Origin: Ferrithrix thermotolerans DSM 19514
GTDB lineage: Bacteria > Actinomycetota > Acidimicrobiia > Acidimicrobiales > Ilumatobacteraceae
Direction: 5' to 3'
NCBI GenBank assembly: GCA_945861025.1
Contig: CAMASN010000030.1
Location: 1 to 38,321 of the forward strand
DNA length: 38,321 bases
Position 1 is the stretch's first letter, and the number at the start of each line of letters is the position of its first letter. Under the pieces are notes generated by a model. The model was not told where the DNA came from. It did not search any database and saw nothing but the letters and a program-made list of their open reading frames with translations. Below, in pieces: positions 7,657 to 24,285 of the stretch. Both the position numbers and the translations under genes were made by a program.

Positions 7657-8781
7657 TCATGGGTAGTGACGTTCGATCCGCCGGCTGATGCCGCACAGTA
7701 TTTCGTAGGCAATTGTGCCAAGGCGAACCGCCCACTCCTCGGCCCTGATCTCGTCGGTCAATGCCTCGTGAGTCTGACGGCCGATCAGCACAACTTCGTC
7801 GCCTACCGAGACCATGTCGTTACCGCAATCAACCATCAACTGGTCCATCGTCACGACTCCAACGATTCGGCGTCGAACGCCGCCGATCAACACCTCGCCG
7901 CCAACATCAAACAAGCGGCGGGGCACGCCATCGGCGTATCCGAGAGGCACCGTTGCAACAGTTGTTGCATCTGCAAATACATGCCGAAGGCCGTAGCTGA
8001 TGCCCTCGCCAGCTGCCACCGTCTTCACGAAGCTCACCTTTGCGCGCAACGACAAAGCAGGCCGCAACTCGGTGCACAACGCTGCCACCCCCGGGCCGGG
8101 CTCTGCGCCGTACATCGCAATTCCGAGCCGCACCAACCCGCGACGAGACGCAGCGATACCAAGTGCCCCGGCCGAGTTAGCCACATGAACCAGCGTCGGT
8201 TCGTGGCCAGCGGCGATGAGCGCGTCGACCACGTCGTTGAACAGCGCAAGCTGGCGACCATTTGATGCAGAATCAGGCTGGTCGGCCAGAGCAAGGTGGG
8301 TGAAGACCCCCTGCAGCTCAAGCTGTGGGTGCGCGGCAATTGCATCGGCCAACTCGACACCGTGCTCGGGCGCCGCACCCACGCGATGCATCCCGGTATC
8401 GATCTTCAGGTGCACCGGATAATCAGCTTGCCCCGCTCTCGCTGCAGCTTGGGCCAACGCCTCAATCGACTCGCGGCAATACACAGTGGGCGTGAGTTGA
8501 TGCGCCACCACGAGATCGAACTCTTCGGAGGGCGACTGGCTCAAGATCAAGATCGGAGCGGTCAGCCCCGCAGCGCGAAGCTCGATGCCCTCGGACACCA
8601 GCGCCACGCACAGTCCCTCAGCACCGGCACTCAGCGCCGCGCGGGCCACCGGCACGGCGCCGTGACCGTAGGCATCGGCCTTCACGACAGCCCACACCAC
8701 AGACGGCGCGACGACATCACGAATCAGACGAACATTGTGCGCGACGGCTTCGAGGTTCACCTCGGCCCATGCCCACCTCAT
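7657..8781 (-). CDS. alr: Alanine racemase
   Basis: PLP enzyme that makes D-alanine for peptidoglycan. The 374-residue protein opens MRWAWAEVNLEAVAHN and has the PLP lysine in AVVKADAYGHG (Lys34). HLKIDTGMHRVG follows, and the second-domain motifs GEGISYGLRH and VPLGYADGVPR mark the active-site region with the catalytic Tyr. The ATG at 8781 overlaps the nnr stop as ATGA, so the two are translationally coupled. The nnr-alr-tsaE order is common in bacteria. Confidence 0.96.
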   Translation of the reverse strand: MRWAWAEVNLEAVAHNVRLIRDVVAPSVVWAVVKADAYGHGAVPVARAALSAGAEGLCVALVSEGIELRAAGLTAPILILSQSPSEEFDLVVAHQLTPTVYCRESIEALAQAAARAGQADYPVHLKIDTGMHRVGAAPEHGVELADAIAAHPQLELQGVFTHLALADQPDSASNGRQLALFNDVVDALIAAGHEPTLVHVANSAGALGIAASRRGLVRLGIAMYGAEPGPGVAALCTELRPALSLRAKVSFVKTVAAGEGISYGLRHVFADATTVATVPLGYADGVPRRLFDVGGEVLIGGVRRRIVGVVTMDQLMVDCGNDMVSVGDEVVLIGRQTHEALTDEIRAEEWAVRLGTIAYEILCGISRRIERHYP

Positions 8782-10142
8782 TGCAGTGAGTCCAGAACCT
8801 GTGGAATCAGCGGCAACAAATCGCTGGCGATGAGCCCGCGGCGAGACCCCAGACGACCAGCCCGACCATGGATCCACGCTCCTGCCGCCGCTGCCTCAAA
8901 CGCCGAGAGACCTTGCGCAAGTAGTGCGCCGATAATTCCCGACAGCACGTCCCCGGTTCCGGCAGTGGCCAGACGCTCGTCGCCAGCAGTGACCACGAGC
9001 ACGCGACCATCGGGATCGGCCACCACGGTTGCCGGGCCTTTGAGTAACACGACAACGCCGAGTTCAAACGCCATCAAGCGAGCTTCCATGATTCGATCAG
9101 ATCCAACTTTGGCGCCAGCAAGCAACGCGAATTCGCCATCGTGCGGCGTGAGCACTGTTGGTGCCTCGCGAGCCTTGAGCACCGAGGCCGGGCCCTCGCT
9201 GCTCCACGCTAAGGCGAACAGACCATCGCCATCGATCACCGTGGGAACCAACGATTTGCTCACCACTGTCCGGATCGCAGCAACGTTGCCCTGGCTGCGG
9301 CCGAGGCCGGGTCCAATCACCAACGATTGAAAGCGATCAAGACTGGCAAGCGCTTCGCGTGCCCAGTCACCGCCACCCAACGGGCGCTGCACGTACTCGT
9401 GATCGCCGCTGCTGGGCACGGCACCAGGAACTGAGAGGTGCACCATGCCGGCTCCACTTCTTTGCGCGGCGCTCGCAGCCAAGTGAGCAGCACCGGTCAT
9501 CCCCGGGCTACCGGCGATGATCTGCGTGGCCGTGCTCCACTTGTGTGCGTCGGCCTCACGCGGCTCCCACCATTCGGCGACATCGCTTTGCTGCACGAGG
9601 TGAACCCTGACATGGTCGGCCGATAGCCCGATGTCGACCACCTCGACAGAGCCCGCCAGCGCGGCTCCCGGCTCGAACAGCAGCCCAGGCTTCAACGCGA
9701 CAAAGGTCACCGTGTGATCGGCCTGCATGACGCCCGAACCCGCTGCTCCGGTGAGGCCATCGACCCCCGAGGGAATGTCGACCGCGAGCACAAGCGCTGA
9801 GCCCGGATCGGGAGCCTGCCACAATCCATGAAACCCGGTTCCGTACGCAGCATCGATCACAAGGTCACACTCAGGCAACACCTTGGGGCAATCGGCTACT
9901 GAGAACACGGTCACCTGCACGCCCTTAAGCGCAAGCTTGCGTGCGGCAACTCGACCATCGGCACCGTTATTGCCTGGGCCAGCCACCACCACGACACGGC
10001 GGCCATACGACCCGCCCAACATTCGCAACGCGGCCCACGCAACTGCAGAGCCTGCTCGCTCGATAAACACGTTCGCTGGGGTGTTTCGCGAAGCAGTCGC
10101 GTCGATGTCTCGCATCTCGTCTGGCGTCACGATCGACAACAT
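8778..10142 (-). CDS. nnr: Bifunctional NAD(P)H-hydrate epimerase / ADP-dependent dehydratase
   Basis: Repairs hydrated NAD(P)H. The N-terminal YjeF_N domain (about 1-200) epimerises NAD(P)HX and carries VVVAGPGNNGADGRVAARKL. The C-terminal ribokinase-like domain dehydrates S-NAD(P)HX and carries GPGLGRS, VLTPHDGEFALL and the catalytic GTGDVLSGIIGALLAQG (from residue 395). The 454-residue length is a little short for the fused form. It starts at ATG 10142, 51 bases after acpS, and ends in an ATGA overlap with alr. Confidence 0.95.
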   Translation of the reverse strand: MLSIVTPDEMRDIDATASRNTPANVFIERAGSAVAWAALRMLGGSYGRRVVVVAGPGNNGADGRVAARKLALKGVQVTVFSVADCPKVLPECDLVIDAAYGTGFHGLWQAPDPGSALVLAVDIPSGVDGLTGAAGSGVMQADHTVTFVALKPGLLFEPGAALAGSVEVVDIGLSADHVRVHLVQQSDVAEWWEPREADAHKWSTATQIIAGSPGMTGAAHLAASAAQRSGAGMVHLSVPGAVPSSGDHEYVQRPLGGGDWAREALASLDRFQSLVIGPGLGRSQGNVAAIRTVVSKSLVPTVIDGDGLFALAWSSEGPASVLKAREAPTVLTPHDGEFALLAGAKVGSDRIMEARLMAFELGVVVLLKGPATVVADPDGRVLVVTAGDERLATAGTGDVLSGIIGALLAQGLSAFEAAAAGAWIHGRAGRLGSRRGLIASDLLPLIPQVLDSLQ

Positions 10143-10193: not shown

Positions 10194-10559
10194 CTACTCG
10201 GCGATCACGTATGCAATGGCAAGCAGGTCGCTGTGCGTCAGCGAAACATGCCAGCGCGTAACACCTGCGTCTCGGGCCAGTTCGGCGGCGCGCGCCGAGA
10301 CGCGTAACGACGGCGCACCCGAGTCAATTCGGGTGACCGACACATCGTGAAAACCAAACGCACCAAGCCCCACCCCGAGCGCCTTCATCACTGCTTCGCG
10401 AGCAGCAAAGCGAACTGCAAGCGACGGCACCGGATCGACCTTTGCGGCCACGTACTCAAGTTCGTCTGCGGTGAACAATCGTTCGCGCATGGTTGGCGTG
10501 CGTTGCAGCGAGCGCCGAAACCGTTCTATCTCAATGGCGTCGACCCCGATGCCGATCAT
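10194..10559 (-). CDS. acpS: Holo-[acyl-carrier-protein] synthase
   Basis: Attaches the 4'-phosphopantetheine arm of CoA to acyl carrier protein, activating fatty-acid synthesis. The 121-residue protein has the Mg-binding GIGVDAIEIERF start (Asp7) and the RFAAREAVMKALG motif with the second acidic ligand. WHVSLTHSDLLAIAYVIAE closes the fold. It begins 3 bases after the glmS stop, so the two are probably read from one message. The acpS-nnr-alr order is widespread in bacteria. Confidence 0.96.
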   Translation of the reverse strand: MIGIGVDAIEIERFRRSLQRTPTMRERLFTADELEYVAAKVDPVPSLAVRFAAREAVMKALGVGLGAFGFHDVSVTRIDSGAPSLRVSARAAELARDAGVTRWHVSLTHSDLLAIAYVIAE

Positions 10560-10562
10560 GAT

Positions 10563-13500
10563 CTAGCGACGCCAGCGATCGGCCATCTCGCTGATGGGCA
10601 AGATCAACAAATCGCCCACCGGCAGCTCACCGAGCAAATCGTCGCTGAATCCACCTTCGGTTTCGGCCACCCAGTCGACGAGACGGTTGTATCGGCGGTC
10701 GTAACCCTGCAGAACCCCACGCATGACGGCGGCCGGCAAGCGATCGTGGAACCGCACGTGCAACAACGTGATTCCGGTGATCTGCGCACCCTTGAGTTCG
10801 GGTACAAAAATCACGGTTCGGCCGTCGCTGCGCCCACGGGCCACGAGCACATCTCGCTCGGCAGCAACGCGGCGCTTGGTGCCCACCAGCGAATGGTTGC
10901 GCTCGACACGAGATGCGACATCGCGCGACAAGCCCCCGCGGTCGACGATGGTGATGGTTGCGCTGGTGGAGTCGGGATCGCCCTCGATGCCGTACCGGGT
11001 GAACCCAACAACCTCGGCAACGGCCGGGTCGAGATCGGCAAGCACCTTCATCGAGCGATACGACAGGCGATCACGACCAACCCCAAGAGAGAGCACTGAT
11101 TGCACCAAGCGGCGGTCGAGCACACCTTCGTCATTGCGACTGATGCCGACGGTAACGGTCTTGGCCTGATGTTTGATTGCATCGATGGGGCGAGTGAGTT
11201 CTTCGATCGCCCGCGTCAGTGCGGAAGTGAGATCGTCGATGAGCGCGCTTGGCGTGCCCACCTTGCCGGTATCGGCGTGATACGACTCGAGCGGCGCATC
11301 GCTGAGCGCATCGCGCAACATCGCCACCACCCGGACAGCTGTAGACGCTTCCATCTGACCGTCGTACACACCTGTGCGCAGCGCAATGAAGAACCGATCG
11401 GCGATGGGCTCAAGCTCCTTGCGCACCAACCGCATCACTTCATCGCCAACATCGGTGGTCGAGATTGCCCGCTCAATGAGCTCGCGGGCCTCGCGCAGCG
11501 GACGAGCCGATGCGTCGATAGCCAGCGCCGCCTCATAGCCAAAGAGGTGGCCCACCATCGCCGACAAGATGAAGGCAAGTGCGCCATCTACGGCAGGCAC
11601 TCCGATCACTTGAGCAGCAGCCGAAAAACGCATGTCGCCCTCGGTGGCAATCACAATCGGCAGCGCCTTGTGGGCGCGGAAGATGGCCACTTCTTTAGCG
11701 ACATCGTCGGCCGTGCCGCCAACCAAGCCCGCCGCACAAACGATGATGAGCGGCTCGCACGAGAGGTCGATGTGCTTTTTATCTTCGGTGACATCGCAGG
11801 CGATGCTCTTGTAGCAAAGCTCGCTGAGCTTGATGCGCACTTCTTGCGCAGCCACGGCATTCGCGCCATTGCCGACCACGGTCCAATATCGGCGCTGCGG
11901 CGCGAACCGACGAGCGGCCTCGCCAATCTGGTCGCGGAGCCCAAGCACCGACACAAGCGCATCAGGAATCTCACGCAGCGACGAGAGCAACTGATGCCTG
12001 CGTTGCGCCGAACCAAGGCCTGCTGCCTCGCTGATCGCACACGCAAGCAACGCACCGGCGGCGACTTGAGCGTAGAACGCCTTCGTTGAGGCAACACTCA
12101 TCTCGACGTCGCGACCATCAGAGGTATACAACACGCCATCGGCCTTGTCGGTGAGATCGCTGTTGCGACGATTCACGATGCCAATTACGCATGCACCGCG
12201 GCCCCGAACGAGATCGACCGTGCGGTTGGTGTCGGTGGTCGTGCCGCTTTGGCTCACGGCCACCACAAGCGTGTCGCTCATGTCGAGACGCATACCAAAG
12301 CCACTGAGTTCAGTAGCCACCACGGGGTCCACATCGAGGCCGCCCTCGGTGAGCGTTGCGAGCGTTGCTGCCATGCTGCGCCCGGCGATGGCGGCGGTGC
12401 CCTGCCCAATCACAAGCACACGGCGAATGGCTCCCGTGGCCAGACGCTCAGCAATAAATGCGGGAAGCGATCGAGCCCCAACGACTGCGCGCAACATGGC
12501 GTCGCTCTCGATGATCTTGCCGCGCAATGTCTTGCGGAAGCTCTCGGGGGCTTCGGTGATTTCCTTCAGTAAGAAGTGTGGGGCCGCGCCACGATCGATG
12601 TCGCGGGTGGTTACCTCGGCCACAACAACGTCTCGCGCTGCGAGCGGTAACTCAGTGCCGCTATACGACAAGCGGCGGATGCCTTCGAGTTCGCCAGCGT
12701 GGGCCGCCGATAATGCGAACACCTGACCTCGGCTTTCGGGCTGATCTGGATCACTTGGAGTCTCGCCGTCCATACGCACATAACGACTGGTCTCTTCGAC
12801 CACGCCGTAGGGTTCGCTGGCAACGATGAACGCATCGTCGGCGAGGCCCACATACAGCGCCTGGCCACTGCCGCGCAGAGCAAACAACATTTGCTCCGGC
12901 TCGTCGGCACTGGCCGCACCGATGGCAACACTGCCCTCAAAGCCGGCCACCGTGCGTCGGAACGCTTCAACAACGTCGCCGTTCGACGCGGCAGAAAAAC
13001 GCGAGACCAACGCCGGAATCACCTTGGCATCGGTGGTGATGGGCCCAGCGATTCGCAGGTTGTGCTCGATCTTCAAGTCGGCATGGTTATCGACATCGCC
13101 GTTCAGCGCCGCCACCAAATATGGCCCCGACTCGTAACCCGCTTCGAGTTCATCGCTGTTCAGCGGATGGCAATTTGGCTCGCTGATAATGCCCACACTT
13201 GCCCAGCGCGTGTGGCCTAAAACGTTGAGTCGCGCTGACGGCGAAGACAGCGCGAGGCGCAACAGGTCGTCGCCAATCACTGCTGAGCGCAACGCACGGG
13301 TGTTGTCGCCAAGCTCACCGATCTCAGCAGCGGCTTTGTACACGAAGCTCAAACATTGCCCGGCAACACGCACCGAACCGCCGGTGAACAATGAGTTGTC
13401 GTTGCGCCCGGCCAGCAAGCTACGCACTGCAGGATCATCGCTCGACAGGTTGTGGCCCCATACGAACAGGTGCAAACCGGCCGAGTCGCGGCCGCGCACC

Positions 13501-13967
13501 TCGAGTCGATCGAGCGCAGAAAACGCCTGCTGCACTGCGAAGTAAGCAGCCACCGCGGCGGGCGCAGCGTCGCGACCCGCAAGTTCGTGAACCGCGCGCG
13601 CCGCGCGCAGGCGATCGTTGCGAATCGACCACAGAGCATCGCGCAAACGACCGATGACCACGTTGGTGGCCTCAACCACGTCGGGCGTGAGATCGGTACC
13701 AAGCTCAAGTGTCGACTCTGCACTGGCCAACGCTGCCTCGAGTTGGTCGACGCGGGCGATGATGCTCGCCGCCAACTCGTGGCGACCCATCAGTGCCTGA
13801 ACGCCCGCAATACCGCGCAGCGTGTGGTCGAGCGCAGCACAGGCATCGGCCATTGCCGCAGTACTCGGACTCAGGCCAAGCGCCTCATCGAGCGCAGCAA
13901 TGATGCTGGCCGAGGAAGGTGCCAATCGCGTGGTCGGCTTGCTCAAAATCGCAATGATCCCGCACAT
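10563..13967 (-). CDS. glmS: Giant GlmS-like glutamine-fructose-6-phosphate aminotransferase
   Basis: Expected to make glucosamine-6-phosphate from fructose-6-phosphate and glutamine; it sits directly after glmM. ATG 13967 gives MCGIIAILSKP, with Cys2 as the N-terminal nucleophile after Met removal. At 1134 residues it is nearly twice the usual GlmS (about 600). An alanine-rich helical insert (about 11-150) interrupts the glutaminase domain, which resumes at LEVRGRDSAG. GHTRWASVG (251-259), LNGDVDN (288-294) and TTDAKVI (311-317) follow. The first SIS domain has SQSGTTTDT (572-580) and MSVASTKAF (623-631); the second has QEVRIKLSELCYK (708-720). About 100 extra residues follow, then AKTVTVG (935-941), resembling the canonical C-tail, then about 190 unrecognised residues. 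The canonical THG after RWA is SVG, and KHGPLAL is replaced. GlmS activity is likely, not certain. Confidence 0.85.
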   Translation of the reverse strand: MCGIIAILSKPTTRLAPSSASIIAALDEALGLSPSTAAMADACAALDHTLRGIAGVQALMGRHELAASIIARVDQLEAALASAESTLELGTDLTPDVVEATNVVIGRLRDALWSIRNDRLRAARAVHELAGRDAAPAAVAAYFAVQQAFSALDRLEVRGRDSAGLHLFVWGHNLSSDDPAVRSLLAGRNDNSLFTGGSVRVAGQCLSFVYKAAAEIGELGDNTRALRSAVIGDDLLRLALSSPSARLNVLGHTRWASVGIISEPNCHPLNSDELEAGYESGPYLVAALNGDVDNHADLKIEHNLRIAGPITTDAKVIPALVSRFSAASNGDVVEAFRRTVAGFEGSVAIGAASADEPEQMLFALRGSGQALYVGLADDAFIVASEPYGVVEETSRYVRMDGETPSDPDQPESRGQVFALSAAHAGELEGIRRLSYSGTELPLAARDVVVAEVTTRDIDRGAAPHFLLKEITEAPESFRKTLRGKIIESDAMLRAVVGARSLPAFIAERLATGAIRRVLVIGQGTAAIAGRSMAATLATLTEGGLDVDPVVATELSGFGMRLDMSDTLVVAVSQSGTTTDTNRTVDLVRGRGACVIGIVNRRNSDLTDKADGVLYTSDGRDVEMSVASTKAFYAQVAAGALLACAISEAAGLGSAQRRHQLLSSLREIPDALVSVLGLRDQIGEAARRFAPQRRYWTVVGNGANAVAAQEVRIKLSELCYKSIACDVTEDKKHIDLSCEPLIIVCAAGLVGGTADDVAKEVAIFRAHKALPIVIATEGDMRFSAAAQVIGVPAVDGALAFILSAMVGHLFGYEAALAIDASARPLREARELIERAISTTDVGDEVMRLVRKELEPIADRFFIALRTGVYDGQMEASTAVRVVAMLRDALSDAPLESYHADTGKVGTPSALIDDLTSALTRAIEELTRPIDAIKHQAKTVTVGISRNDEGVLDRRLVQSVLSLGVGRDRLSYRSMKVLADLDPAVAEVVGFTRYGIEGDPDSTSATITIVDRGGLSRDVASRVERNHSLVGTKRRVAAERDVLVARGRSDGRTVIFVPELKGAQITGITLLHVRFHDRLPAAVMRGVLQGYDRRYNRLVDWVAETEGGFSDDLLGELPVGDLLILPISEMADRWRR

Positions 13968-14019: not shown

Positions 14020-15342
14020 TTAGCTGAAACGGGCCCGAACGATGTTGGCCAACCCATTAGCAACATCGTGCGCCACGGCATCAGTTGCGGCCTCGACCAT
14101 CACCCGTACGAGCGGCTCAGTGCCGCTGGCCCGCAACAGCACCCGGCCCTCGCCGCCGAGCGCAGCTTCGGCTTGCGCCAACTCGCTGGCGAGTTCGATC
14201 GCAATATCGGGATGACGATCGGCCACGCGCACATTCACGAGCACCTGGGGGAACGCTGTCATCACATCGCGCGACATCTCGGCCAACGAACGGCGCGACG
14301 AGTGCGTGTGATGCAGCAGTCGAAGGCCCGCAAGTAGACCGTCGCCGGTAGTAGCCAGGTCTCGGTAAATCACATGCCCGCTCTGTTCGCCACCAATTGC
14401 GTAACCACCCGCGTCGAGTGCTTCGAGCACATAGCGGTCGCCCACCGCAGTGGCTACCACTGTGATTCCTGCTGCCTGCATCGCGCGATGAAACCCAAGA
14501 TTGCTCATCACCGTGACAACCACGGCGTTGCCGCTGAGGCGGCCCTCGGCCTGCAACTGCAACGCAGCCAACGCAAGCAGGCGGTCGCCATCGACGATGT
14601 GTCCCTCGTTGTCTACCGCAATCACGCGGTCACCATCGCCGTCGAAGGCAAGACCTGCGTGGGCTCCGTGCTCAAGCACTGCCTGCACAAGCGATGATGG
14701 ATGTGTTGCACCGCATTTGGCGTTGATGTTCGTGCCGTTGGGCGTGGCGTGCATCACAATCACGTCGGCACCGAGCGCAGCCACCGCTGCCGGACCAGCA
14801 ACACTCATTGCGCCGTTGGCACAGTCGAGCACCACGCGCACGCCAGCGAGGCAATCGGGCGGAAATAGCGACACAACGTGTTGCACGTACTCGGTCACTG
14901 CCTCGACAAATACATCAGCAGTCGCCTTCGACGCCGACGCGACTGAGCGTTCCTCGAGCACTGCTTCAAGGTTGGCTTCTATCGACGCTTCGACATCGTC
15001 AGTGAGCTTCAGCCCACCGGCGGCGAAAATCTTGACGCCATTATCGGAATACGGATTGTGTGAGGCCGTGATCATCGCTGCGGGTACACCGCGGCGAGCC
15101 GAAAAAAATGCCAGCGCAGGGGTGGGTAGCACTCCACACGATTGCACCGTTTGAGCCTGCGCGTGTAAGCCCAGAATCAATGCAGATTCGAAAAGCTCAC
15201 CAGACTCGCGGGTATCGCGACCAATGAGCCATGTTCCACCGTCGAGCACTTGGGCCGCGGCAACGCCGAGGGATCGCACGTAGGCGGTGGTGAGTTCGGT
15301 GAGCGCAACGCCGCGCACGCCATCGGTGCCGAAGCGCAGCAA
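14020..15342 (-). CDS. glmM: Phosphoglucosamine mutase
   Basis: Converts glucosamine-6-phosphate to glucosamine-1-phosphate for UDP-GlcNAc. The 440-residue protein has the start LRFGTDGVRG, the phosphoserine loop ITASHNPYSDNGVK (Ser94) and the Mg-binding FDGDGDR. GGEQSGHVI binds sugar and RASGTEPLVRVMVEA the phosphate. Start choice: TTG at 15342 gives the family-typical N-terminus and lies one base after the rpsI TGA. The upstream GTG at 15418-15420 would add 26 residues read from within rpsI with no family match. No strong ribosome-binding site precedes the TTG, so termination-reinitiation coupling to rpsI is inferred. Confidence 0.95.
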   Translation of the reverse strand: MLRFGTDGVRGVALTELTTAYVRSLGVAAAQVLDGGTWLIGRDTRESGELFESALILGLHAQAQTVQSCGVLPTPALAFFSARRGVPAAMITASHNPYSDNGVKIFAAGGLKLTDDVEASIEANLEAVLEERSVASASKATADVFVEAVTEYVQHVVSLFPPDCLAGVRVVLDCANGAMSVAGPAAVAALGADVIVMHATPNGTNINAKCGATHPSSLVQAVLEHGAHAGLAFDGDGDRVIAVDNEGHIVDGDRLLALAALQLQAEGRLSGNAVVVTVMSNLGFHRAMQAAGITVVATAVGDRYVLEALDAGGYAIGGEQSGHVIYRDLATTGDGLLAGLRLLHHTHSSRRSLAEMSRDVMTAFPQVLVNVRVADRHPDIAIELASELAQAEAALGGEGRVLLRASGTEPLVRVMVEAATDAVAHDVANGLANIVRARFS

Positions 15343-15343
15343 A

Positions 15344-15739
15344 TCAGCGCTTGGTGTACTGAGGAGCCTTACGGGCCTTCTTGAGACCGTACTTCTTGCT
15401 TTCCTTGCGACGTGAGTCACGAGTGAGCAAGCCGGCCTTCTTCAGCGCTGCGCGCTGCTCAGGATCGAGCTCAATCAACGAGCGGGCAATGCCCATGCGC
15501 AATGCGCCGGCCTGGCCGCTGATGCCGCCACCATGGATGGTTGCGTCGATGTCGAACGCCTCTTCGGTGTTCGTGAGACGGAGCGGTTCGCTCACGGTCA
15601 TACGAGCCATCGCCGTTGGGAAGTAGTTCTCGAAACTACGACCGTTCACGGTGACGATGCCCGTGCCAGGGCGCAAGCGCACCCGAGCGACAGATTCCTT
15701 ACGACGACCAGTTGTTTGAGTAAGCGGCTTAGTGCCCAT
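15344..15739 (-). CDS. rpsI: 30S ribosomal protein S9
   Basis: Small-subunit head protein whose C-terminal tail contacts P-site tRNA. The 131-residue protein contains [34 protein letters not shown] and the basic tail ending QYTKR, all S9 hallmarks. It follows rplM by 23 bases, the universal L13-S9 pair. Its stop is one base from the proposed TTG of glmM. Confidence 0.98.
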
Positions 15740-15762
15740 GGTGATTCACATTCTCCGAATAC

Positions 15763-16209
15763 TTAGCGCGACTTGGCCGCTGAAAGATCAAATACGACTG
15801 GCATCTGTGCTGCGTGTGGGTGCTCGGCGCCGCCGTACACCTTGAGTTTCTTGATCATCTGACGACCAAGCGGGCCCTTTGGCAACATGCCCCGGATGCT
15901 GTTGCGGATTGCCTCTTCAGGCTTACGCGACATGAAGTTGGCATACGTCTCAGTCTTGAGGCCGCCTGGGTAACCGCTGTAGCGGTGCACTCCTTTGAGT
16001 TCGGCCTTGTTTGACGTGAGCACAATCTTGGCCGCATTGACGATGATGACATGGTCACCTGTGTCAATGTGTGGGGCGAAGGTTGGCTTGTGCTTACCGC
16101 GCAGCACGCGTGCTGCCTCGGTGCACATGCGACCAAGCACCAAGCCTTCGGCATCAATGACATGCCAGGCTGCGGTGATTTCACTTGCTTTGGGACTGTA
16201 TGTACGCAT
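15763..16209 (-). CDS. rplM: 50S ribosomal protein L13
   Basis: Early-assembly 23S rRNA-binding protein. The 148-residue protein has [49 protein letters not shown] and [21 protein letters not shown]. Start at the second Met of a Met-Met pair (16209), by match to the family; the first at 16212 is also possible. It opens the run rplM-rpsI-glmM-glmS and has a leader of roughly 155 bases from a candidate promoter. Confidence 0.98.
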
Positions 16210-16369
16210 CATAAGAGCTTCTTTCAACCGGGCGCCGACCGGCAGCCTCAGGGAACTCAACAAGGATAGGGGCGGAGATGTCGAATCAGCAATCAGATCG
16301 GTCGCGAATTCCCGTCCTTTTCGCCGATAACTCAGCAGAAGTCACCTATCGCACTCATGTCGGCCATCT

Positions 16370-16398
16370 TTTACAGGATTGCGTGGCTCGAACTACAA
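16370..16398 (-). promoter_or_regulatory. Candidate promoter of rplM-rpsI operon
   Basis: On the minus strand TTGTAG (16398-16393) and TGTAAA (16375-16370) are 17 bases apart, a reasonable sigma-70 match. It lies about 160 bases before rplM in the gap after truA. An 8-base inverted repeat sits just upstream. Pattern evidence only. Confidence 0.35.
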
Positions 16399-16406
16399 CA
16401 GCGTTA

Positions 16407-16426
16407 TTTGTAGCCGGCGCTACAAA
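16407..16426. repeat. Inverted repeat in the truA-rplM gap
   Basis: TTTGTAGC (16407-16414) and GCTACAAA (16419-16426) form a perfect 8-base inverted repeat with a 4-base centre. It lies 8 bases upstream of the candidate rplM -35 box and 4 bases before a short plus-strand reading frame. It has no T-tract on either side, so it looks more like an operator than a terminator. Confidence 0.5.
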
Positions 16427-16430
16427 CGAC

Positions 16431-16529
16431 ATGACATCGCGTGTTCTGGTCGGCGCAATCGGCGCTGTGATGCTTGTCGCGGCCGGCTTCGGGCTGCGCG
16501 ATTATCTTGGTCGCTACCGCAAACGCTGA
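16431..16529 (+). CDS. Possible 32-residue single-pass membrane microprotein
   Basis: Short plus-strand frame opening MTSRVLVGAIGAV, with a hydrophobic stretch at about residues 5-22 and a basic tail ending GRYRKR: a plausible single membrane span. It fills part of the 304-base gap between rplM and truA and overlaps the truA 3' end by 16 bases in convergent orientation. The same frame extends upstream to ATG 16278 (83 residues), where AGGGG lies about 7 bases before the start, but that N-terminal part is not convincing. No family recognised; it may be chance. Confidence 0.25.
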   Translation: MTSRVLVGAIGAVMLVAAGFGLRDYLGRYRKR

Positions 16530-17335
16530 TCCGAAACCACCGTTTCGGGATAGCCCACTTCCCACAACACCAGCCCGCGAGCTGGCGCAATTTCTGGGGC
16601 GGCCTGGCGATCGCGACCCAACATCAACGAGCGCATCTCGCCCGCGTGCATTCGACCGAGCCCGACATCTACAAGCGCGCCGACAATCGAGCGCACCATC
16701 TGATGGCAAAACGCATTCGCTCGAATCTCGAAACGCAAGACACGTGCCTCGCCTGCGCTCGGACCGATCGCATCGGTAGTGCCAGTCACGTCGGAGATGT
16801 TGGCCAGCATCACCCGACGCCGCAGCGACCGCTCGGCTTGCCCTTCAGCCACCTGAGGTTTCCGACAGAACGACGAGAAGTCGTGCTCACCAATCAGTGG
16901 ATCGCATGCGAGCTGCATTGTGGGCAACAACAGCGGGCGCGTCACGTGCCACGCTCGATCGGTCAAAAACGGATTCGCAGTGGGGCCGTTGTAGATGGTG
17001 TAGCGATAGTGCCGCCATTGGGCACTAAAACGCGCGTTGAATTGGTGGGGCACCCAGTCGCCACTGCGCAGCACCACCCGCGGGCCGCACATGCGATTCA
17101 CGCGATGCACAAGGTTGCTCAACACCGTATTGCCCGGCAGATCGCAACTGATCACCTGACCCCATGCGTGCACACCTGCATCGGTTCGGCCGGCGCCAAC
17201 GAGGTCTACATCGTGGCGGGCAATCAGCGACATTGCCTCAGTGAGCACACCCATCACCGTGTCGACATTGGGGTTCACCGCAAAGCCGTGAAATCCTGCG
17301 CCGTCGTATGCGACAACGAAACGAGCCCGCCGCAT
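16514..17335 (-). CDS. truA: tRNA pseudouridine(38-40) synthase TruA
   Basis: Isomerises uridines 38-40 in the anticodon arm of many tRNAs. The 273-residue protein starts MRRARFVVAYDGAGFHGFAV and has the catalytic motif VGAGRTDAGVHAWGQV (Asp52), then RHYRYTIYNG, FCHQMVRSIVGALVDVG and the closing LVLWEVGYPE. The ATG at 17335 was chosen by family match; a longer frame reaches into rplQ. It follows rplQ by 49 bases, a common bacterial order, and probably ends this transcription unit. Confidence 0.95.
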   Translation of the reverse strand: MRRARFVVAYDGAGFHGFAVNPNVDTVMGVLTEAMSLIARHDVDLVGAGRTDAGVHAWGQVISCDLPGNTVLSNLVHRVNRMCGPRVVLRSGDWVPHQFNARFSAQWRHYRYTIYNGPTANPFLTDRAWHVTRPLLLPTMQLACDPLIGEHDFSSFCRKPQVAEGQAERSLRRRVMLANISDVTGTTDAIGPSAGEARVLRFEIRANAFCHQMVRSIVGALVDVGLGRMHAGEMRSLMLGRDRQAAPEIAPARGLVLWEVGYPETVVSDQRLR

Positions 17336-17384
17336 AGCGACGGGCTCGTTCACGTTCTCGATAGCGCCGTTATCCGGCACCGTT

Positions 17385-17756
17385 TTAGACCAGTTCGATG
17401 CGCGCCATTTGGGCGTTGTCGCCGTGGCGCGGGCCGAGCTTGTAAATGCGAAGGTATCCACCTGGGCGCTGGATGTAGCGAGGTGCCACTTCGTTAACCA
17501 ACTTGGCGGTCATCTCGCGGTCGCCCAAGTAGCCCTGAATCTGACGAATGCGATGGATACGCATTGGGTCATCCTCAGTCGCCTTCTTGGCCTTGGTGAT
17601 CAACTTCTCGGCGATTGGGCGCAATGCCTTTGCCTTGGCCTCGGTGGTCACAATTGCCTCGGCGGCAATCAACGACGCAGCCAAGTTGGCCATCATGATC
17701 TTTTGGTGTTGTGAGCTGCCGCCGAAGTTGCGGGCTCTACGTGGTGTAGCTGGCAT
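17385..17756 (-). CDS. rplQ: 50S ribosomal protein L17
   Basis: Large-subunit protein near the exit tunnel. The 123-residue protein has an actinobacterial-style start (MPATPRRARNFGGSSQHQKI), the core ANLAASLIAAEAIVTTEAKAK and the end GPRHGDNAQMARIELV. It follows rpoA by 28 bases, the standard alpha-operon order. Confidence 0.97.
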   Translation of the reverse strand: MPATPRRARNFGGSSQHQKIMMANLAASLIAAEAIVTTEAKAKALRPIAEKLITKAKKATEDDPMRIHRIRQIQGYLGDREMTAKLVNEVAPRYIQRPGGYLRIYKLGPRHGDNAQMARIELV

Positions 17757-17784
17757 TAGGGGTCTCCCTCAATGACTTTCTTGG

Positions 17785-18717
17785 TCAGCCGCGCAGCGTG
17801 AGGCCGCGCTCGTCGAGCTTCTGCTTGACCTCGTCGAGGCTCTTCTGACCAAAGTTGGTGATGTTCAGAAGGTCGTCTTCGGTCTTGGTGAGAAGCTCGC
17901 CAATGGAATTGATCTGTGCCCGCTTGAGGCAGTTACGGGGGCGCTCAGACAGATCGAGGTCTTCGATCGGCAAGTCGAGGTCTGGCGATGAAGCGCTGCT
18001 TGCAGCAACTTCGCCAAGCTCGAGACCCTGTGGCTCATCGCTGAGGTTGGCCACAAGATCGACCAACGAACGCAAGGTTGCGCCGGCCGAGGCAAGTGCT
18101 TCGCGAGGGGTGATCGAGCCATCGGTCTCGATGTCGAGAACCAAACGATCGTAGTTCGTGCTCTGCTCGACGCGAGTCGGCTCGACTTCGAACATCACGC
18201 GACGCACTGGCGAGAAGATCGCGTCGATCGGGATCACACCAATGGTGCGGCTCTCGTTTTCGCGATGGCTCGACAGGTAACCACGACCACGCTCGACGGT
18301 GAGGTCGATAGCAAGACGGCCCTTGGTGTTGAGCGACGCAATGTGCAACTCGGTGTTGAGGATCTCAACATCGCTTGAACACTTGATGTCGGCTGCGGTG
18401 ACCTCGGCTGCGCCACGAATGTCGAGACGAATCACGACGGCTTCGTCGCTCAAGCTCGTGAGCACGATGTCTTTGAGGTTCAAGATGATGTCGGTGATGT
18501 CTTCGCTGATACCAGTGATGGTGTCGAATTCGTGCAAAGCATCGTCGAATCGAACGGCCGTGATAGCTGCGCCCGGGATGGACGACAACAAAGTACGACG
18601 CAATGAGTTACCAATCGTGTGGCCGAAGCCAGGCTCGAGTGGACCAATGAAGAATCGTTGGCGGTTGTTGGTTTCTTCGCCGATTGCCTCGACGGTGGGG
18701 CGCTGAATGACGAGCAT
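17785..18717 (-). CDS. rpoA: DNA-directed RNA polymerase subunit alpha
   Basis: Assembly platform of RNA polymerase and contact point for UP elements and activators. The 310-residue protein has the N-terminal dimerisation domain (about 1-230), with EPGFGHTIGNSLRRTLLSSIPGA-type helix 1 and FSPVRRVMFEVEPTRVE. An acidic linker rich in Ser/Asp/Leu follows. The helix-hairpin-helix C-terminal domain has NCLKRAQINSIGELLTKTE and LLNITNFGQKSLDEVKQKL. It lies between rpsD and rplQ. Confidence 0.98.
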   Translation of the reverse strand: MLVIQRPTVEAIGEETNNRQRFFIGPLEPGFGHTIGNSLRRTLLSSIPGAAITAVRFDDALHEFDTITGISEDITDIILNLKDIVLTSLSDEAVVIRLDIRGAAEVTAADIKCSSDVEILNTELHIASLNTKGRLAIDLTVERGRGYLSSHRENESRTIGVIPIDAIFSPVRRVMFEVEPTRVEQSTNYDRLVLDIETDGSITPREALASAGATLRSLVDLVANLSDEPQGLELGEVAASSASSPDLDLPIEDLDLSERPRNCLKRAQINSIGELLTKTEDDLLNITNFGQKSLDEVKQKLDERGLTLRG

Positions 18718-18747
18718 GAAAGTCGCCTGAGTCCTTTCGGGGTTCGG

Positions 18748-19365
18748 TTACTTTGAGTACAGCTCAACGATGAGCTGTTCGCGGACGGGCACATCGATGT
18801 GCTCGCGTTGGGGCAGTTCACGAACTGTGACTTGCTTGCCCTCGTCGCCCTTTTCGAGCCACCCGACGGTGACGCGATCGAGTGTGTCGAGATTGTGTTG
18901 CACGATGATCATGCCGCGGGCCTTCTCGGACAGGCTCACAACATCGCCACGCTTGACGCGGGCGCTAGCGATATCGACGCGCTTGCCGTTGACCAAGATC
19001 TTGCCGTGGCTCACGAACTGGCGAGCCTGCGGACGGGTCTCGGCCCAGCCCGCGCGGTACACCACGTTGTCGAGGCGCTGCTCAAGCAAACGCAACAGGT
19101 TCTCACCGGTTGGGCCTTGCAGACGGTTGGCCTCTTCGTAGGTGCGACGGAACTGACGCTCGAGCACTCCGTAGATGAACTTGGCCTTCTGCTTCTCCTG
19201 CAACTGAGCGAGGTATTCGCTGCCGGCATTGCGACGGCGGGTACGGCCGTGCTGACCTGGTGGGAAAGGACGACGCTCAAGCGCCTTGCGGCCCTTTTCG
19301 TTCTCGAAGATGTTGGTCGCTAGGCGGCGCGAGATGCGCACCTTTGGTCCGGTGTAACGAGCCAT
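18748..19365 (-). CDS. rpsD: 30S ribosomal protein S4
   Basis: Primary 16S rRNA binder that starts 30S assembly. The 205-residue protein starts MARYTGPKVRISRRL and has the S4 RNA-binding domain ETRPQARQFVSHGKILVNGK. It has no N-terminal cysteines, so it is a zinc-free S4. Start at ATG 19365 by family match; the longer frame reads into rpsK. It lies 2 bases after rpsK. Confidence 0.98.
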   Translation of the reverse strand: MARYTGPKVRISRRLATNIFENEKGRKALERRPFPPGQHGRTRRRNAGSEYLAQLQEKQKAKFIYGVLERQFRRTYEEANRLQGPTGENLLRLLEQRLDNVVYRAGWAETRPQARQFVSHGKILVNGKRVDIASARVKRGDVVSLSEKARGMIIVQHNLDTLDRVTVGWLEKGDEGKQVTVRELPQREHIDVPVREQLIVELYSK

Positions 19366-19367
19366 GT

Positions 19368-19766
19368 CTAGTTCCTCTTGCGCTTCGGCTGGCTGCAACC
19401 GTTGTGAGCCAACGGTGTGACATCTTTGATCGAGGTGACCTCGAGGCCAGTGTTCTGAATTGAGCGCACTGCGGTGTCGCGGCCGGAGCCTGGACCCTTC
19501 ACCTGAACTTCGACTCGGCGCAAGCCATGCTCCATTGCGGCGCGGGCTGCCTTGTCGGCTGCCATCTGCGCGGCGAATGGTGTGCTCTTGCGCGAACCCT
19601 TGAAGCCAACTGCGCCCGACGACGCCCAGGAAATGACGTTGCCCTGGGTGTCAGTGATGCTGACGATGGTGTTGTTGAACGAGCTCTTGATGTGCACGAC
19701 ACCGACAGTGACGTTCTTGCGTTCGCGCTTGCGGGGACGCCGTCCCCCTGGCTTTGGCTTTGCCAT
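19368..19766 (-). CDS. rpsK: 30S ribosomal protein S11
   Basis: Platform protein of the 30S subunit. The 132-residue protein shows [39 protein letters not shown] and the end [16 protein letters not shown] (canonical PHNGCRPPKRRRV-like). It has a basic N-terminal tail typical of the family. It sits 2 bases after rpsM and 2 bases before rpsD. Confidence 0.98.
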
Positions 19767-19768
19767 CG

Positions 19769-20146
19769 CTACTTCCTCACGGCCTTCTTCTTGTTGGCAA
19801 CGGTCTTCTTCGGGCCCTTACGGGTGCGAGCGTTGGTGTGGGTGCGCTGGCCACGAACAGGAAGGCCTTTGCGGTGGCGGATGCCTTGGAGGCAACCGAT
19901 TTCGATCTTGCGCTTGATGTCGCGCTGCACTTCGCGACGAAGGTCGCCTTCGACCGTGAGCTTTTCGATCTCGGCACGGATGCGGTTCACCTCGTCTTCG
20001 GTGAGGCTGCGTACGCGGGTGTTTGGATCAAGGGCCGCGTCGACACAGATCTTCTGTGCGGTTGGCTTACCGATTCCATAGATGTAGGTAAGGGCGATTT
20101 CCAGCCGCTTTTCGCGGGGAATGTCGACACCAGATATACGAGCCAT
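19769..20146 (-). CDS. rpsM: 30S ribosomal protein S13
   Basis: Head protein that bridges to the 50S subunit and P-site tRNA. The 125-residue protein has [51 protein letters not shown] and a lysine-rich tail. It follows rpmJ by 16 bases, the usual infA-rpmJ-rpsM order. Confidence 0.98.
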
Positions 20147-20162
20147 CGTTGTTTCCTATTCC

Positions 20163-20276
20163 TCAGCCCTGGCGCTGCTTGTGACGTGGGTTTTCGCAGA
20201 TCACCATGACGCGACCGTGCCGGCGGATGACCTTGCACTTCTCGCAAATTTTCTTGACACTCGGTCGGACCTTCAT
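20163..20276 (-). CDS. rpmJ: 50S ribosomal protein L36
   Basis: Smallest large-subunit protein, 37 residues: it opens [20 protein letters not shown] and closes [14 protein letters not shown]. Zinc ligands Cys11, Cys14, Cys27 and His32 are all present, so this is the zinc-binding form. It begins 9 bases after infA. Length and every landmark fit the family. Confidence 0.97.
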
Positions 20277-20285
20277 GGGGTGCCT

Positions 20286-20510
20286 TTACTTGTAGCGGTA
20301 CGTAATTCGACCCCGGGTGAGGTCGTAGGGGGTGAGCTCTACCTGAACCTTGTCGCCAGGCAGAATGCGGATGTAGTGCATGCGCATCTTTCCGGAGATA
20401 TGAGCCAAGACTTTGTGGCTATTTTCGAGTTCGACTCGGAACATGGCGTTCGGAAGCGACTCGACAATGGTGCCTTCAAGCACAATGGCATCTTCTTTAG
20501 GCTTGGCCAG
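20286..20510 (-). CDS. infA: Translation initiation factor IF-1 (probable CTG start)
   Basis: OB-fold factor that binds the 30S A site during initiation. [46 protein letters not shown] and [17 protein letters not shown] match IF-1 throughout. No ATG lies near the expected start. CTG at 20510, read as fMet, gives 74 residues beginning MAKPKEDA, the standard length, and has GAGGAGG five bases upstream. The alternative is TTG at 20537 (83 residues), with a weak ribosome-binding site and a nine-residue extension (MSAAVEEAT) lacking family resemblance. Product identity is certain; the start is about 60:40 in favour of CTG. Confidence 0.95.
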
Positions 20511-20522
20511 GGTGGCCTCCTC
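20508..20522 (-). promoter_or_regulatory. Strong Shine-Dalgarno and CTG start of infA
   Basis: On the minus strand GAGGAGG (20522-20516), then CCACC, then CTG (20510-20508). A full anti-16S match at this spacing inside what would otherwise be coding sequence of a TTG-started infA argues that ribosomes start at CTG. Confidence 0.6.
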
Positions 20523-20589
20523 AACAGCGGCGGACAAAAGGCTCTCGCGAGGGCTGCGTGCGCGCAGACTTCGTTAGGGCCGAGTGGCA

Positions 20590-20618
20590 ATGCTATCGGC
20601 AACGATTCCGAACGCCAA
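20590..20618 (-). promoter_or_regulatory. Candidate infA promoter
   Basis: TTGGCG (20618-20613) and TAGCAT (20595-20590) on the minus strand are 17 bases apart, each with four of six matches to sigma-70 boxes. A second -10-like TATAAC lies at 20686-20681 with no clear -35. Both are in the 231-base region between map and the CTG of infA, the largest break inside the superoperon after rplC. Pattern evidence only. Confidence 0.3.
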
Positions 20619-20741
20619 GCGTCAGCCGACAGTTCTGGGAGAGAAATCGTCGCAAATCCGCTGCTGGCGGTCGCAGATCTGTTATACGAGCACGCGACAC
20701 CCCCATTACAGCGAGCTGACCTGCACCTTTAGATGTCATGG

Positions 20742-21509
20742 TCACGCCCGAGTAAGTATCTCGGGCCCATGCGGCCCAACAAGAATTGTGTGCTCGGCGT
20801 GTGCCGCAAGCGATCCGTCGGCGGTGACGATGGTCCAACCGTCGGAAAGCTCGTAGACATCGTCGTCGCCACTCGCAATGAGCATGGGCTCCACGGCCAA
20901 AACCACCCCCGACTCGAGCAGCGGTCCTTTACCGTGACGTCCGCGGTTTTCGACGTCGGGCTCCTCGTGCATTGCTTGTCCGATGCCGTGTCCGCAGTAG
21001 TCGTGCGGGCTGCCGTATCCGGCGAGCGACACCACTGCATCGATAGCTGCGCCAATATCACCAAGATGTCCGCCCGGGACCATCGCTGCGATGCCGGCTG
21101 CGAGGGCTCGATCGGCGGTATCGATCAGCAACTGAGCGGCAGCCGACCCGCTTCCGACGAGCATTGAGAACGCAGCATCTCCGTGCCAACCGTGCACGAT
21201 TGCTCCACAGTCGATGGACAACAGGTCACCTTCGTCGAGAACACGCTCGCTGGGAATGCCATGGATTACTTCGTCGTTGACCGACGCACAAATGACCCCA
21301 CTAAAGCCACGATGCCCCAAGAAATTCGAAGCTGCTTGGCGGCGTCGCAGTACCTCGCGGGCGACTGCGTCAAGATCGAGTGTGGTCACGCCGGGCCGCA
21401 CTGCTTGACGGATTGCTTCGTGCATCTCGGCCACTACTCGACCAGCGGCACGCATGTGCTTAATCTCTTCAAGACTCCGGCGAGGAAGCCCTGCCTTTCG
21501 GCGGCGCAT
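20742..21509 (-). CDS. map: Methionine aminopeptidase, type I
   Basis: Removes the initiator methionine from nascent proteins. The 255-residue pita-bread-fold protein has all five metal ligands: Asp100 (SIDCGA), Asp111 (GWHGDAA), His174 (YCGHGIG), Glu207 (LAVEPML) and Glu239 (AEHTIL), plus His83 in VIHGIP. It has no N-terminal zinc-finger extension. Its ATG shares one base with the adk stop (TAATG). The secY-adk-map-infA order is typical of high-GC Gram-positives. Confidence 0.97.
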   Translation of the reverse strand: MRRRKAGLPRRSLEEIKHMRAAGRVVAEMHEAIRQAVRPGVTTLDLDAVAREVLRRRQAASNFLGHRGFSGVICASVNDEVIHGIPSERVLDEGDLLSIDCGAIVHGWHGDAAFSMLVGSGSAAAQLLIDTADRALAAGIAAMVPGGHLGDIGAAIDAVVSLAGYGSPHDYCGHGIGQAMHEEPDVENRGRHGKGPLLESGVVLAVEPMLIASGDDDVYELSDGWTIVTADGSLAAHAEHTILVGPHGPEILTRA

Positions 21510-22171
21510 TACTTGCGCCGACTGGCTTCGACCGCTGCGGTGAGCCGGGCGAAGACCTCGTCGGGGCTGGCGACGCCATCGACAACCGTGAGCCGACCAG
21601 TTGCTTGGTAGTAGTTGATCAACGGCGATGTTTGCTGCTCATAGAGGTCGAGTCGGTTGTTGATTGCGTCGGGGGTGTCGTCGGCGCGATACATCACGTC
21701 GCCGCCACACACCTCGCAAATCCATGGTTGACGCTCGTTGCCACTGGCCACATAATTCGTGCCGCAGTCACGACACACGCGCCTCGCCGAGAGGCGCTCG
21801 AGCACCAAACTTCGGGGCACGTCGAGGTCGATGACAGCGTCGAGTGGACGCTCGCCAGTCACCAGATCGAGGGCCTCTGCTTGGCCAACGGTGCGTGGGA
21901 ATCCGTCGAGGATGTAGCCGCGGGTGCGGGCGTCGTCGCTGCTGAGTCGTTCGCTGACAATGCCGACCATGGTGCTGTCGCCGACGAGTCCACCAGAATC
22001 CATGACTTCTTTAGCGGCCTGCCCGAGCGGAGTTCCCTCACGAACGGCAGCGCGCAGCATGTCTCCAGTGGAGATATGCGGTACAACAAAGTGTCGCGAC
22101 AAACGTACGCATTGCGTACCTTTCCCCGCACCCTGCCTACCGAGGATGATGAGCCGAGCACCGGGGATCAT
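21509..22171 (-). CDS. adk: Adenylate kinase (zinc-LID form)
   Basis: Interconverts ATP + AMP and 2 ADP. The 220-residue protein has the P-loop GRQGAGKGT (11-19), AMP-site ISTGDMLRAAV, and GYILDGFPRTVGQAEAL. Its long LID domain has four cysteines (Cys133, 136, 152, 155) that fit a structural zinc site. Many actinobacteria have a short, LID-less Adk, so the long zinc form is of note. It begins 7 bases after secY and overlaps map by one base. Confidence 0.97.
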   Translation of the reverse strand: MIPGARLIILGRQGAGKGTQCVRLSRHFVVPHISTGDMLRAAVREGTPLGQAAKEVMDSGGLVGDSTMVGIVSERLSSDDARTRGYILDGFPRTVGQAEALDLVTGERPLDAVIDLDVPRSLVLERLSARRVCRDCGTNYVASGNERQPWICEVCGGDVMYRADDTPDAINNRLDLYEQQTSPLINYYQATGRLTVVDGVASPDEVFARLTAAVEASRRK

Positions 22172-22178
22172 CGTTTGG

Positions 22179-23498: not shown

Positions 23499-23565
23499 TA
23501 GTAACTCCTCGACGAGACGATGAACAACGACACGCTAGAGCCACGCAGGTGGCCAGAGCGGGCAA

Positions 23566-24057: not shown

Positions 24058-24090
24058 TGTGTTGCTCTTTCGAATCCGTTACCGAACGCC

Positions 24091-24285
24091 TCAGGCGTCG
24101 GTGCTTTCCTCAACCGAAATAAGGTGAGGTACCCGTGCGATCATTCCCCGAATTTCGGGGCGATCGGGCAGGGTGTTGGTGTCACCAATCTTCTTCAAAC
24201 CAAGGGCGCGCAGCGTGCCGCGACTCTTTGGCTTTGCGCCGATGCTTGAACGCACCAGCTTTACGAACAATGTCTTTTCGCTCAT
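24091..24285 (-). CDS. rpmD: 50S ribosomal protein L30
   Basis: Small 50S protein of 64 residues: [35 protein letters not shown] and [11 protein letters not shown] all fit L30. The ATG overlaps the rpsE stop (ATGA). The last few residues (SVEESTDA) are an acidic extension. Confidence 0.95.

Follow-up and report, generated by a model that had tools for sequence, protein, structure and literature searches.

A very divergent, nearly double-length GlmS apparently replaces the canonical enzyme in many Acidimicrobiia

The DNA analysed here is a 38,321-nucleotide contig of Ferrithrix thermotolerans DSM 19514 (GenBank assembly GCA_945861025.1, contig CAMASN010000030.1), which is referred to as a whole as the window. 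It carries the gene order glmM, long glmS, acpS, nnr, alr, tsaB, rimI and tsaD, and the second of these genes, which encodes an outsized relative of glucosamine-6-phosphate synthase (GlmS), is the subject of this work. The product of GlmS is the first precursor dedicated to the cell wall, and the enzyme is generally regarded as uniform, with about 608 residues. The long gene occupies positions 10563-13967 of the minus strand and encodes 1134 residues plus a stop from an ATG at 13967, in agreement with the length given in the original prediction; the plus-strand frame at the same positions is interrupted by stops. A longer open frame of 1172 residues begins at 14081, its initial 62 bases lying inside glmM, which ends at 14020. 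Because this frame overlaps glmM and would bury the catalytic Cys, the start was taken as 13967, where ATG TGC GGG places the Cys straight after Met, as in the MCG[IV] start at which the relatives were trimmed. Residues are numbered with this Met as 1. The motifs quoted in the original prediction are all found (MCGIIAI at the start, SQSGTTTDT at 572-580 and SVASTKAF at 624-631), glmM precedes the gene as described, and the size is indeed nearly double, compared to 606-617 residues in 42 canonical GlmS proteins.

A frameshift fusion or a mis-assembly of glmS with an unrelated frame has next to no probability as an explanation of this length. The source genome is a draft of 104 contigs, but dozens of assemblies show a protein of this length with its parts in the same order, among them the one-contig genomes G012, G019 and G200 and, as a complete chromosome, that of Aquihabitans sp. 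G128 (locus L133). Among the relatives on named contigs (best 80 of 552), 77 of the 80 loci contain an open frame of more than 900 residues and three do not; 74 of these frames measure 1110-1183 residues, and the three shorter ones (978, 1064 and 1067 residues) run off their contigs. On the strength of this shared length and order, assembly fusion was rejected.

The modular anatomy of the protein, with boundaries set by aligning 28 long GlmS sequences with 16 canonical ones of the same class, is presented in Table 1. The N-terminal insert, the additional residues separating SIS2 from the C-tail and the 190-residue extension of the original prediction were all confirmed, both in the alignment and in the AlphaFold model, and a second glutaminase insert of about 65 residues (~171-235), which had not been told apart, was recognized. 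The parts differ widely in their conservation. Insert A is the least conserved (mean majority frequency 0.50), and an NCBIfam search with residues 1-140 gave no match; in insert B, 14 of 65 positions are invariant in alignment A2, which comprises 50 of 56 non-redundant loci plus the window protein (51 sequences). The C-tail is the best conserved segment (mean 0.97; 15 of 19 positions invariant), with the motif IKHQAKTVTVG. The corresponding LAK[ST]VTVE motif forms the protein terminus in all 42 canonical sequences (LAKTVTVE in 28, LAKSVTVE in 14). Unlike the canonical glmS products described by TIGR01135, the window protein does not end at the C-tail: its extension runs 190 residues past GISR, and all 51 long proteins extend 191-211 residues beyond HQAK.

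Table 1. Parts of the long GlmS and neighbouring genes, with positions in the window
Feature	Residues	Positions	Strand	Basis
N-terminal strand with nucleophile Cys2 (canonical Cys1)	1-7	13947..13967	-	Cys in 51/51 long proteins
Insert A, helical, within the glutaminase fold after the Cys strand	~8-140	13548..13946	-	alignment with canonical; helices in model
DRLEVRGRDSAG, canonical R-loop with Arg26	141-170	13458..13547	-	Arg158 in 51/51
Insert B, between R-loop strand and HTRW motif	~171-235	13263..13457	-	alignment
Rest of glutaminase and linker (HTRW 252-255, NG 289-290, TD 312-313)	236-455	12603..13262	-	PF13522 29.5 bits (cut-off 27)
SIS1 (GQGTAA, SQSGTTTDT, SVASTKAF)	456-655	12003..12602	-	PF01380 62.6 bits, over cut-off; structural match
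SIS2 (E709, K713, E716, H732)	656-825	11493..12002	-	four residues in 51/51; structural match
Insert C (~100 residues), helical, SIS2 to C-tail	826-925	11193..11492	-	alignment; model
C-tail, RPIDAIKHQAKTVTVGISR, equivalent of canonical PRNLAKSVTVE, Lys603 -> Lys936, internal	926-944	11136..11192	-	conservation
C-terminal extension, predicted PAS/GAF-like five-strand domain and helical end	945-1134	10566..11135	-	model; fold matches
glmM, phosphoglucosamine mutase, directly upstream		14020..15420	-	TIGR01455 over cut-off (483.8 bits; cut-off 447.55)
acpS, holo-ACP synthase, directly downstream		10194..10559	-	
nnr, NAD(P)H-hydrate repair gene (epimerase/dehydratase type)		8778..10142	-	
alr, alanine racemase		7657..8877	-	

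Examination of the catalytic positions, mapped by alignment to the E. coli enzyme (1jxa_A), shows a nearly complete canonical set. Residue numbers and roles are those commonly used for the E. coli enzyme; for Trp74 and the C-tail, the part played in the ammonia channel is described in PMC7948480. Identical in all 51 long proteins are Cys2, Arg158, His252, Arg254, Trp255, Asn289, Gly290 and Asp313 of the glutaminase, Ser572-Gln573-Ser574, Thr577 and Ser627-Thr628-Lys629 of SIS1, and Glu709, Lys713, Glu716, His732 and Lys936 of SIS2 and the C-tail; the canonical Thr76 is Ser in 51/51. Both PF01380 and PF13522 score over their cut-offs in the window protein, and its best NCBIfam matches are two GlmS models, both below cut-off (237.1 of 381 bits for the first). 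The long forms of the other sampled genomes reach approximately 130-254 bits with TIGR01135. The protein is of the GlmS type by its residues, fold and context, and lies outside the curated canonical family.

The long form and the canonical enzyme were then enumerated in 148 genomes of the class. The long form, defined by matches of more than 500 bits to the window protein (full or split), occurs in 57 genomes and a canonical GlmS over the TIGR01135 cut-off in 83, with no genome containing both. The remaining eight genomes, which have neither form, are seven small genomes of genus g47 (70-87% complete) and G146; one of the seven, G183, contains a 152-residue fragment of a canonical GlmS. Within the family of the window, 98 of 101 genomes match the long form, a few of them by split or short pieces only. 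The order is divided, 23 of its 37 sampled genomes having the long form (families f1, f3 and f6-f10) and 14 the canonical one (f2, f4 and f5). By family, the long form is represented in 7 of the 10 sampled in this order and in 12 of the 26 sampled in other orders of the class. Canonical GlmS in many Acidimicrobiia has apparently been replaced by this very divergent version.

The genome of the window (95.6% complete) contains two PF01380 proteins, namely the long GlmS and a protein of 287 residues, which by its sequence appears to be a MurR/RpiR-type regulator; a second canonical glmS was rejected on this account. A TIGR01135 match on contig C41 was likewise set aside, as its 497-residue frame aligns with the model over the glutaminase part alone (positions 1-213). 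A normal-length GlmS elsewhere in this genome, for which the original prediction had proposed a check, was not found. The lineage-specific GlmS which it suggested is well supported by several lines of evidence: this is the sole GlmS found in a nearly complete genome, the two forms exclude each other in the class sample, and they share their neighbourhood, most of the catalytic residues checked and the predicted fold. Its phyletic range has been mapped in part, within the class and family samples given above and 396 genomes of the phylum. In the latter, residues 811-1134 used as a query match 33 genomes, of which 22 are in the class, nine are strong matches outside it and two are marginal ones outside it (E ~5e-4).

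Several observations weigh against reading the long protein as the GlmS that takes the place of the canonical one. The TIGR01135 score of 215.1 bits is far below the cut-off of 418.05, and the curated rule does not call the gene glmS. The canonical His77 is replaced at position 258 by Val (40 proteins) or Ile (11), and Ser303 and Tyr28 are replaced by Ala525 and Arg160, respectively, each in 51/51; judged from sequence, these substitutions might reflect a change in how the substrate is handled. Both forms are present in G276 (6.5 Mb, 5% contamination), a genome from outside the class and the only one of the nine strong outside-class genomes that also contains a canonical GlmS over cut-off. Lastly, 7 of 20 further long loci (L075-L078, L080, L081 and L091) have neither glmM nor acpS beside the gene, six of the seven being from genomes outside the class. 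The two forms of G276 are found on separate contigs (C155 and C313), the long one near an alpha-mannosidase-like frame, and the assembly is possibly a mixed bin.

The low score, the three substitutions and a median core identity of 29.3% to canonical GlmS could also be taken to indicate a changed reaction, i.e., another sugar phosphate or amine product, or isomerisation or deamination only, which the original prediction had offered as an option. We regard this as improbable, and the option is not supported: no other GlmS-like protein was found in the genome, though glmM adjoins the gene and a GlmU-type uridylyltransferase is present, exclusion with canonical GlmS is strict in the class sample, and the canonical acid-base residues are kept together with most of those of the glutaminase. 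By analogy with the known family, catalysis as a glucosamine-6-phosphate synthase is highly probable.

The long form is remote from all canonical enzymes compared. Over 601 shared core columns (42 canonical and 21 long sequences), the identity between long and canonical forms ranges from 24.1 to 33.1% about the median given above, whereas the medians are 50.7% (minimum 41.1) among canonical sequences within the phylum and 64.3% among long ones. GlmS sequences of Bacteroides, Paenibacillus and a haloarchaeon, taken from plasmid records, show medians of 45.1, 48.8 and 43.1%, respectively, to the actinobacterial canonical enzymes, compared to 27.6, 28.4 and 28.6% to the long form. A core tree of 42 rows, for which 10 of the 20 canonical loci of the class and 7 of the 21 long loci were used, places the seven long rows alone on one side of a 100/100 branch. 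The seven canonical rows of f2, f4 and f5 fall in a 98/96 group with nine of the ten other class rows and two other rows of the phylum. The inner branch of this tree is very long (4.71 + 3.04 changes per column about the midpoint root), so that fast evolution and an old origin are indistinguishable. The best reading of these sequence comparisons is that the long form represents a deep sister branch of GlmS.

The surroundings of the two forms are alike. In the named long-form loci, viewed with flanks of up to 4 kb, some of them cut by contig ends, glmM is present in 73/80 and acpS in 65/80, and both genes occur in 13 of the 20 further long loci; L074, from outside the class, keeps the gene order of the window. 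With flanks of up to 1.5 kb, the canonical glmS of the class has glmM in 16 of 20 loci and acpS in 11. In the canonical loci of f2, f4 and f5, which belong to the order of the window, glmM adjoins in 7/7 and acpS is directly next in 5/7, lying about 2.3 kb further on in the other two (L204 and L208, family f2). An rpoB tree of 27 rows requires three changes of the long/canonical label, two of them forced by well-supported branches, and nests the canonical families f2, f4 and f5 within the order of the window (100/100 clade), some of the inner forks being partly open. Of the 30 genomes selected for this tree, G170, G131 and G101 gave no rpoB match, G108 was lost because no frame passed the motif filter, and G141 contributed two copies. 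Together, the shared glmM neighbourhood and the tree of this one marker gene point to an exchange of long and canonical glmS in place at least twice, in a direction that is unsettled. The two rpoB genes of G141 (loci L177 and L201) are different: one groups firmly with genomes of the class and the other, with weak support, with genomes outside it, as in a mixed bin or a second copy.

Long glmS loci without glmM and acpS may mark gene transfer between lineages. Five of them (L076-L078, L080 and L081) are in family f72, and the others are L075 and L091; their neighbours include an IMPDH-like frame (L091) and an M24 peptidase frame (L076). Four public records of metagenome-assembled genomes (L098, L116, L137 and L167) also carry a long GlmS, at 57-68% identity, under titles that look wrong for their content (Bifidobacterium breve for two, Thermoanaerobacterales and Acidobacteria). 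A plasmid-borne long form was considered and rejected: 269 plasmid records match, none covering 80% of the query, and of the best 15 of these 269, 14 are annotated as glmS and the other is in a record with hardly any annotation.

The AlphaFold2 model of the full protein, built with 51 sequences, has a mean predicted local distance difference test score (pLDDT) of 88 and a predicted template modelling score (pTM) of 0.76; residues 216-219 and 934-947 are below 50 pLDDT. The top Foldseek matches in the PDB are human GFAT-1 (E 1.7e-28) and E. coli GlmS. With VIA-align, GFAT-1 (6r4j_B) gives Z 43.3 at a root-mean-square deviation (rmsd) of 3.2 over 614 aligned residues, and 1jxa_A (608 long) gives Z 42.8 at rmsd 3.5 over 597, spanning model residues 2..943. 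The structure prediction proposed as a check thus recovers the GlmS/GFAT fold, and in the model the canonical enzyme is contained nearly whole, tail included.

The C-terminal extension, modelled alone, is predicted with high confidence (pLDDT 95.3, pTM 0.91) as a five-strand sheet with helices, in which the order of strands and helices fits the five-strand antiparallel PAS/GAF fold. Its best match in both programs is 7jsr_A, the 180-kDa glutamate dehydrogenase (GDH) of Mycobacterium smegmatis, with E 5.5e-4, probability 1.00 and a TM-score of 0.54 by query in Foldseek, and Z 9.3 at rmsd 4.7 over 163 aligned residues in VIA-align (model 8-190 to GDH 174-358), above all other rows. Sequence searches are less telling. 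The extension of the window protein has no family over cut-off in Pfam-A or NCBIfam, and the best E in a PDB sequence search with the extension profile is 0.35. In alignment A3, which consists of the window and 49 of the 50 A2 loci (50 members; L109, without the exact cutting motif, was left out), none of the members matches a PAS/GAF family at E 0.1, the best family matches being DUF7124 in three members (E 0.0018) and single matches. A large GDH of this kind was looked for in the window genome and not found. An ET.P..D motif near the end, common by eye to the extension and the GDH, was dropped, as hhalign gave it no support.

In ordinary GlmS, the C-tail is a free end that closes the active site and the channel. 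In the E. coli enzyme, the C-tail and Trp74 form a hydrophobic channel for ammonia (PMC7948480), and for this reason a domain joined to the tail is in a favourable position to gate such a channel. In the long enzyme, glutamine would be hydrolysed at Cys2, its ammonia would travel along a channel bordered by Trp255 and the C-tail, and fructose-6-phosphate would be converted by the two SIS domains to glucosamine-6-phosphate, for use by the GlmM encoded next door. The C-tail is anchored here on both sides, by the helical insert after SIS2 and by the PAS/GAF-like domain. The latter would respond to a metabolite or partner by controlling closure of the tail, and hence the transfer of ammonia or the activity of the synthase; insert A may serve as an oligomer or docking element. 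The chances of a regulatory role for the extension appear about even, and its direct control of the C-tail is a more doubtful proposition. The built-in regulation of the original prediction is plausible, on the model, via a PAS/GAF-like domain attached to the channel-closing tail; the sensing of a particular ligand, which it also suggested, has no counterpart in the sequence, which indicates none.

Some features of the model tell against a sensor that controls the tail. The C-tail itself is among the low-confidence residues (934-947), and GAF, PAS and Cache domains come after the GDH at Z ~6-7 over 80-100 residues, a level also reached by unrelated folds. A comparison of A3 by hhalign with 20 actinobacterial large GDHs (L-GDHs) gave a probability of 0.5% and E 0.12 for the segment and a probability of 0.2% and E 0.39 for the whole; the likeness of the extension to GDH is accordingly a resemblance of predicted fold only, with no profile support for homology.

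Alternatively, the additional parts could be structural, setting the oligomer or docking a partner enzyme such as GlmM without sensing a ligand, and we give this explanation a substantial chance, somewhat short of even. The poorly conserved long helices of insert A are what would be expected of a scaffold, glmM is found at the same locus in most of the named long-form loci (73 of the best 80 of 552), and the extension of the window protein belongs to no known sensor family over cut-off. The PAS/GAF-like part (945-1073) fits this explanation less well: it is fixed to the C-tail, and its mean conservation resembles that of the glutaminase (0.69 versus 0.68), above the expectation for a spacer. 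Of its 129 positions, 15 are invariant in A2, including seven basic or aromatic residues (Arg965, Tyr970, Arg991, Tyr992, Arg1020, Lys1031 and Arg1050) as well as Asp1048 and Glu1057; of those named, only Tyr992, Lys1031, Asp1048, Arg1050 and Glu1057 remain invariant when the wider set A1 is considered. By sequence, such residues might suit an anionic ligand. All in all, we consider it fairly probable that the long protein is the only glucosamine-6-phosphate synthase of these bacteria, a separate long type replacing the canonical GlmS, with the extension as a controller of the tail. The fuller picture of a deep GlmS class whose lid is suspended from a helical arm on one side and a PAS-like sensor on the other, which puts ammonia transfer under metabolite control, and which was swapped with the canonical form beside glmM at least twice in Acidimicrobiia, is tentative.

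Like the canonical bacterial and archaeal GlmS (TIGR01135; E. coli 1jxa and 2j6h), the long form has an N-terminal Cys glutaminase followed by two SIS domains in the same order, nearly all of the catalytic residues checked, a C-tail motif with its Lys and, in the class, the glmM neighbourhood. It differs in its core identity of about 29%, its 1134 residues versus 606-617 and its position below the curated cut-off, and it adds two glutaminase inserts, about 100 residues before the C-tail and 190 after it. With eukaryotic GFAT/Gfa1 (human GFAT-1, 6r4j) it shares the fold over the 614 residues aligned above. To our knowledge, GFAT lacks both a helical insert behind the Cys strand and a domain beyond the C-tail, and the chain ranges of the structural alignment agree. 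GFAT also contains extra sequence before the isomerase half, for which a regulatory role is proposed (PMC7948480); the extra loop of human GFAT2 comprises 46 residues (Lys211-Val256) and lies in another place than the inserts of the long GlmS.

The SIS sugar phosphate enzymes NagB-II, AgaS and FraB share the SIS1-SIS2 fold (Z ~28-35) but are without a glutaminase domain and score much lower in profile (NagB-II, 62.5 bits). The PAS-containing N-terminal segment of the M. smegmatis GDH (7jsr) resembles the predicted fold of the extension over nearly its full length, including the terminal helices. This is another enzyme, with the segment at the opposite end, at 12% identity and with no profile similarity to the extension, and its structure is at 6.27 A. 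The large GDH is itself an oversized enzyme of nitrogen metabolism with proposed sensor domains (PMC8175468). As to the novelty of the size, among the matches listed from the open-licence literature (without subscription papers and supplements), there was no description of this protein or of a GlmS this large. In the accessible main text of a paper on Acidimicrobiia molecular markers (PMC5962788), fructose, glutamine and the SIS domain are not mentioned, and the content of PMC12263773 and PMC6113628, where available, is unrelated to this protein.

A second architecture, farther from canonical GlmS than the actinobacterial canonical enzymes are from those of Bacteroides, Paenibacillus and a haloarchaeon, suggests the swap of an essential enzyme across a large environmental group. 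If annotation relied solely on the curated glmS cut-off, the GlmS of these genomes would be overlooked. The C-tail, which presumably seals the ammonia channel, is tethered in the long form, and this may also offer a natural experiment on the control of channel closure.

GlmU is also unusual in this order. The GlmU of the window genome has 370 residues (contig C17, locus L279:2374-3486, minus strand) and matches positions 2-344 of 452 in TIGR01173, comprising the uridylyltransferase part and a short left-handed helix; it lacks the C-terminal stretch in which the acetyltransferase site lies, and the gene that follows looks like prs. The GlmU match ends at 333-362 in 32 of the 37 genomes of the order (two of the 32 with an internal stop), and of the other five, G035 has a partial glmU match and four have no clear glmU. 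None of the 37 has a GlmU over the TIGR01173 cut-off, compared to 100 of 111 genomes in the other orders of the class. A tie between the shortened GlmU and the long GlmS was rejected, as in the 148-genome sample the short GlmU goes with the order and not with the type of GlmS.

In the window itself, no known Rfam regulatory RNA was found at the gathering threshold, and a tRNA scan gave none. Ten further frames comprise a ribosomal-protein and housekeeping block of the usual kind (15344-29584; rpsI, rplM, truA, rpoA, map, adk, secY and rpsC), a frame at 20121-20732 (+) without a family and an HtrA-type protease at 36522-37706.

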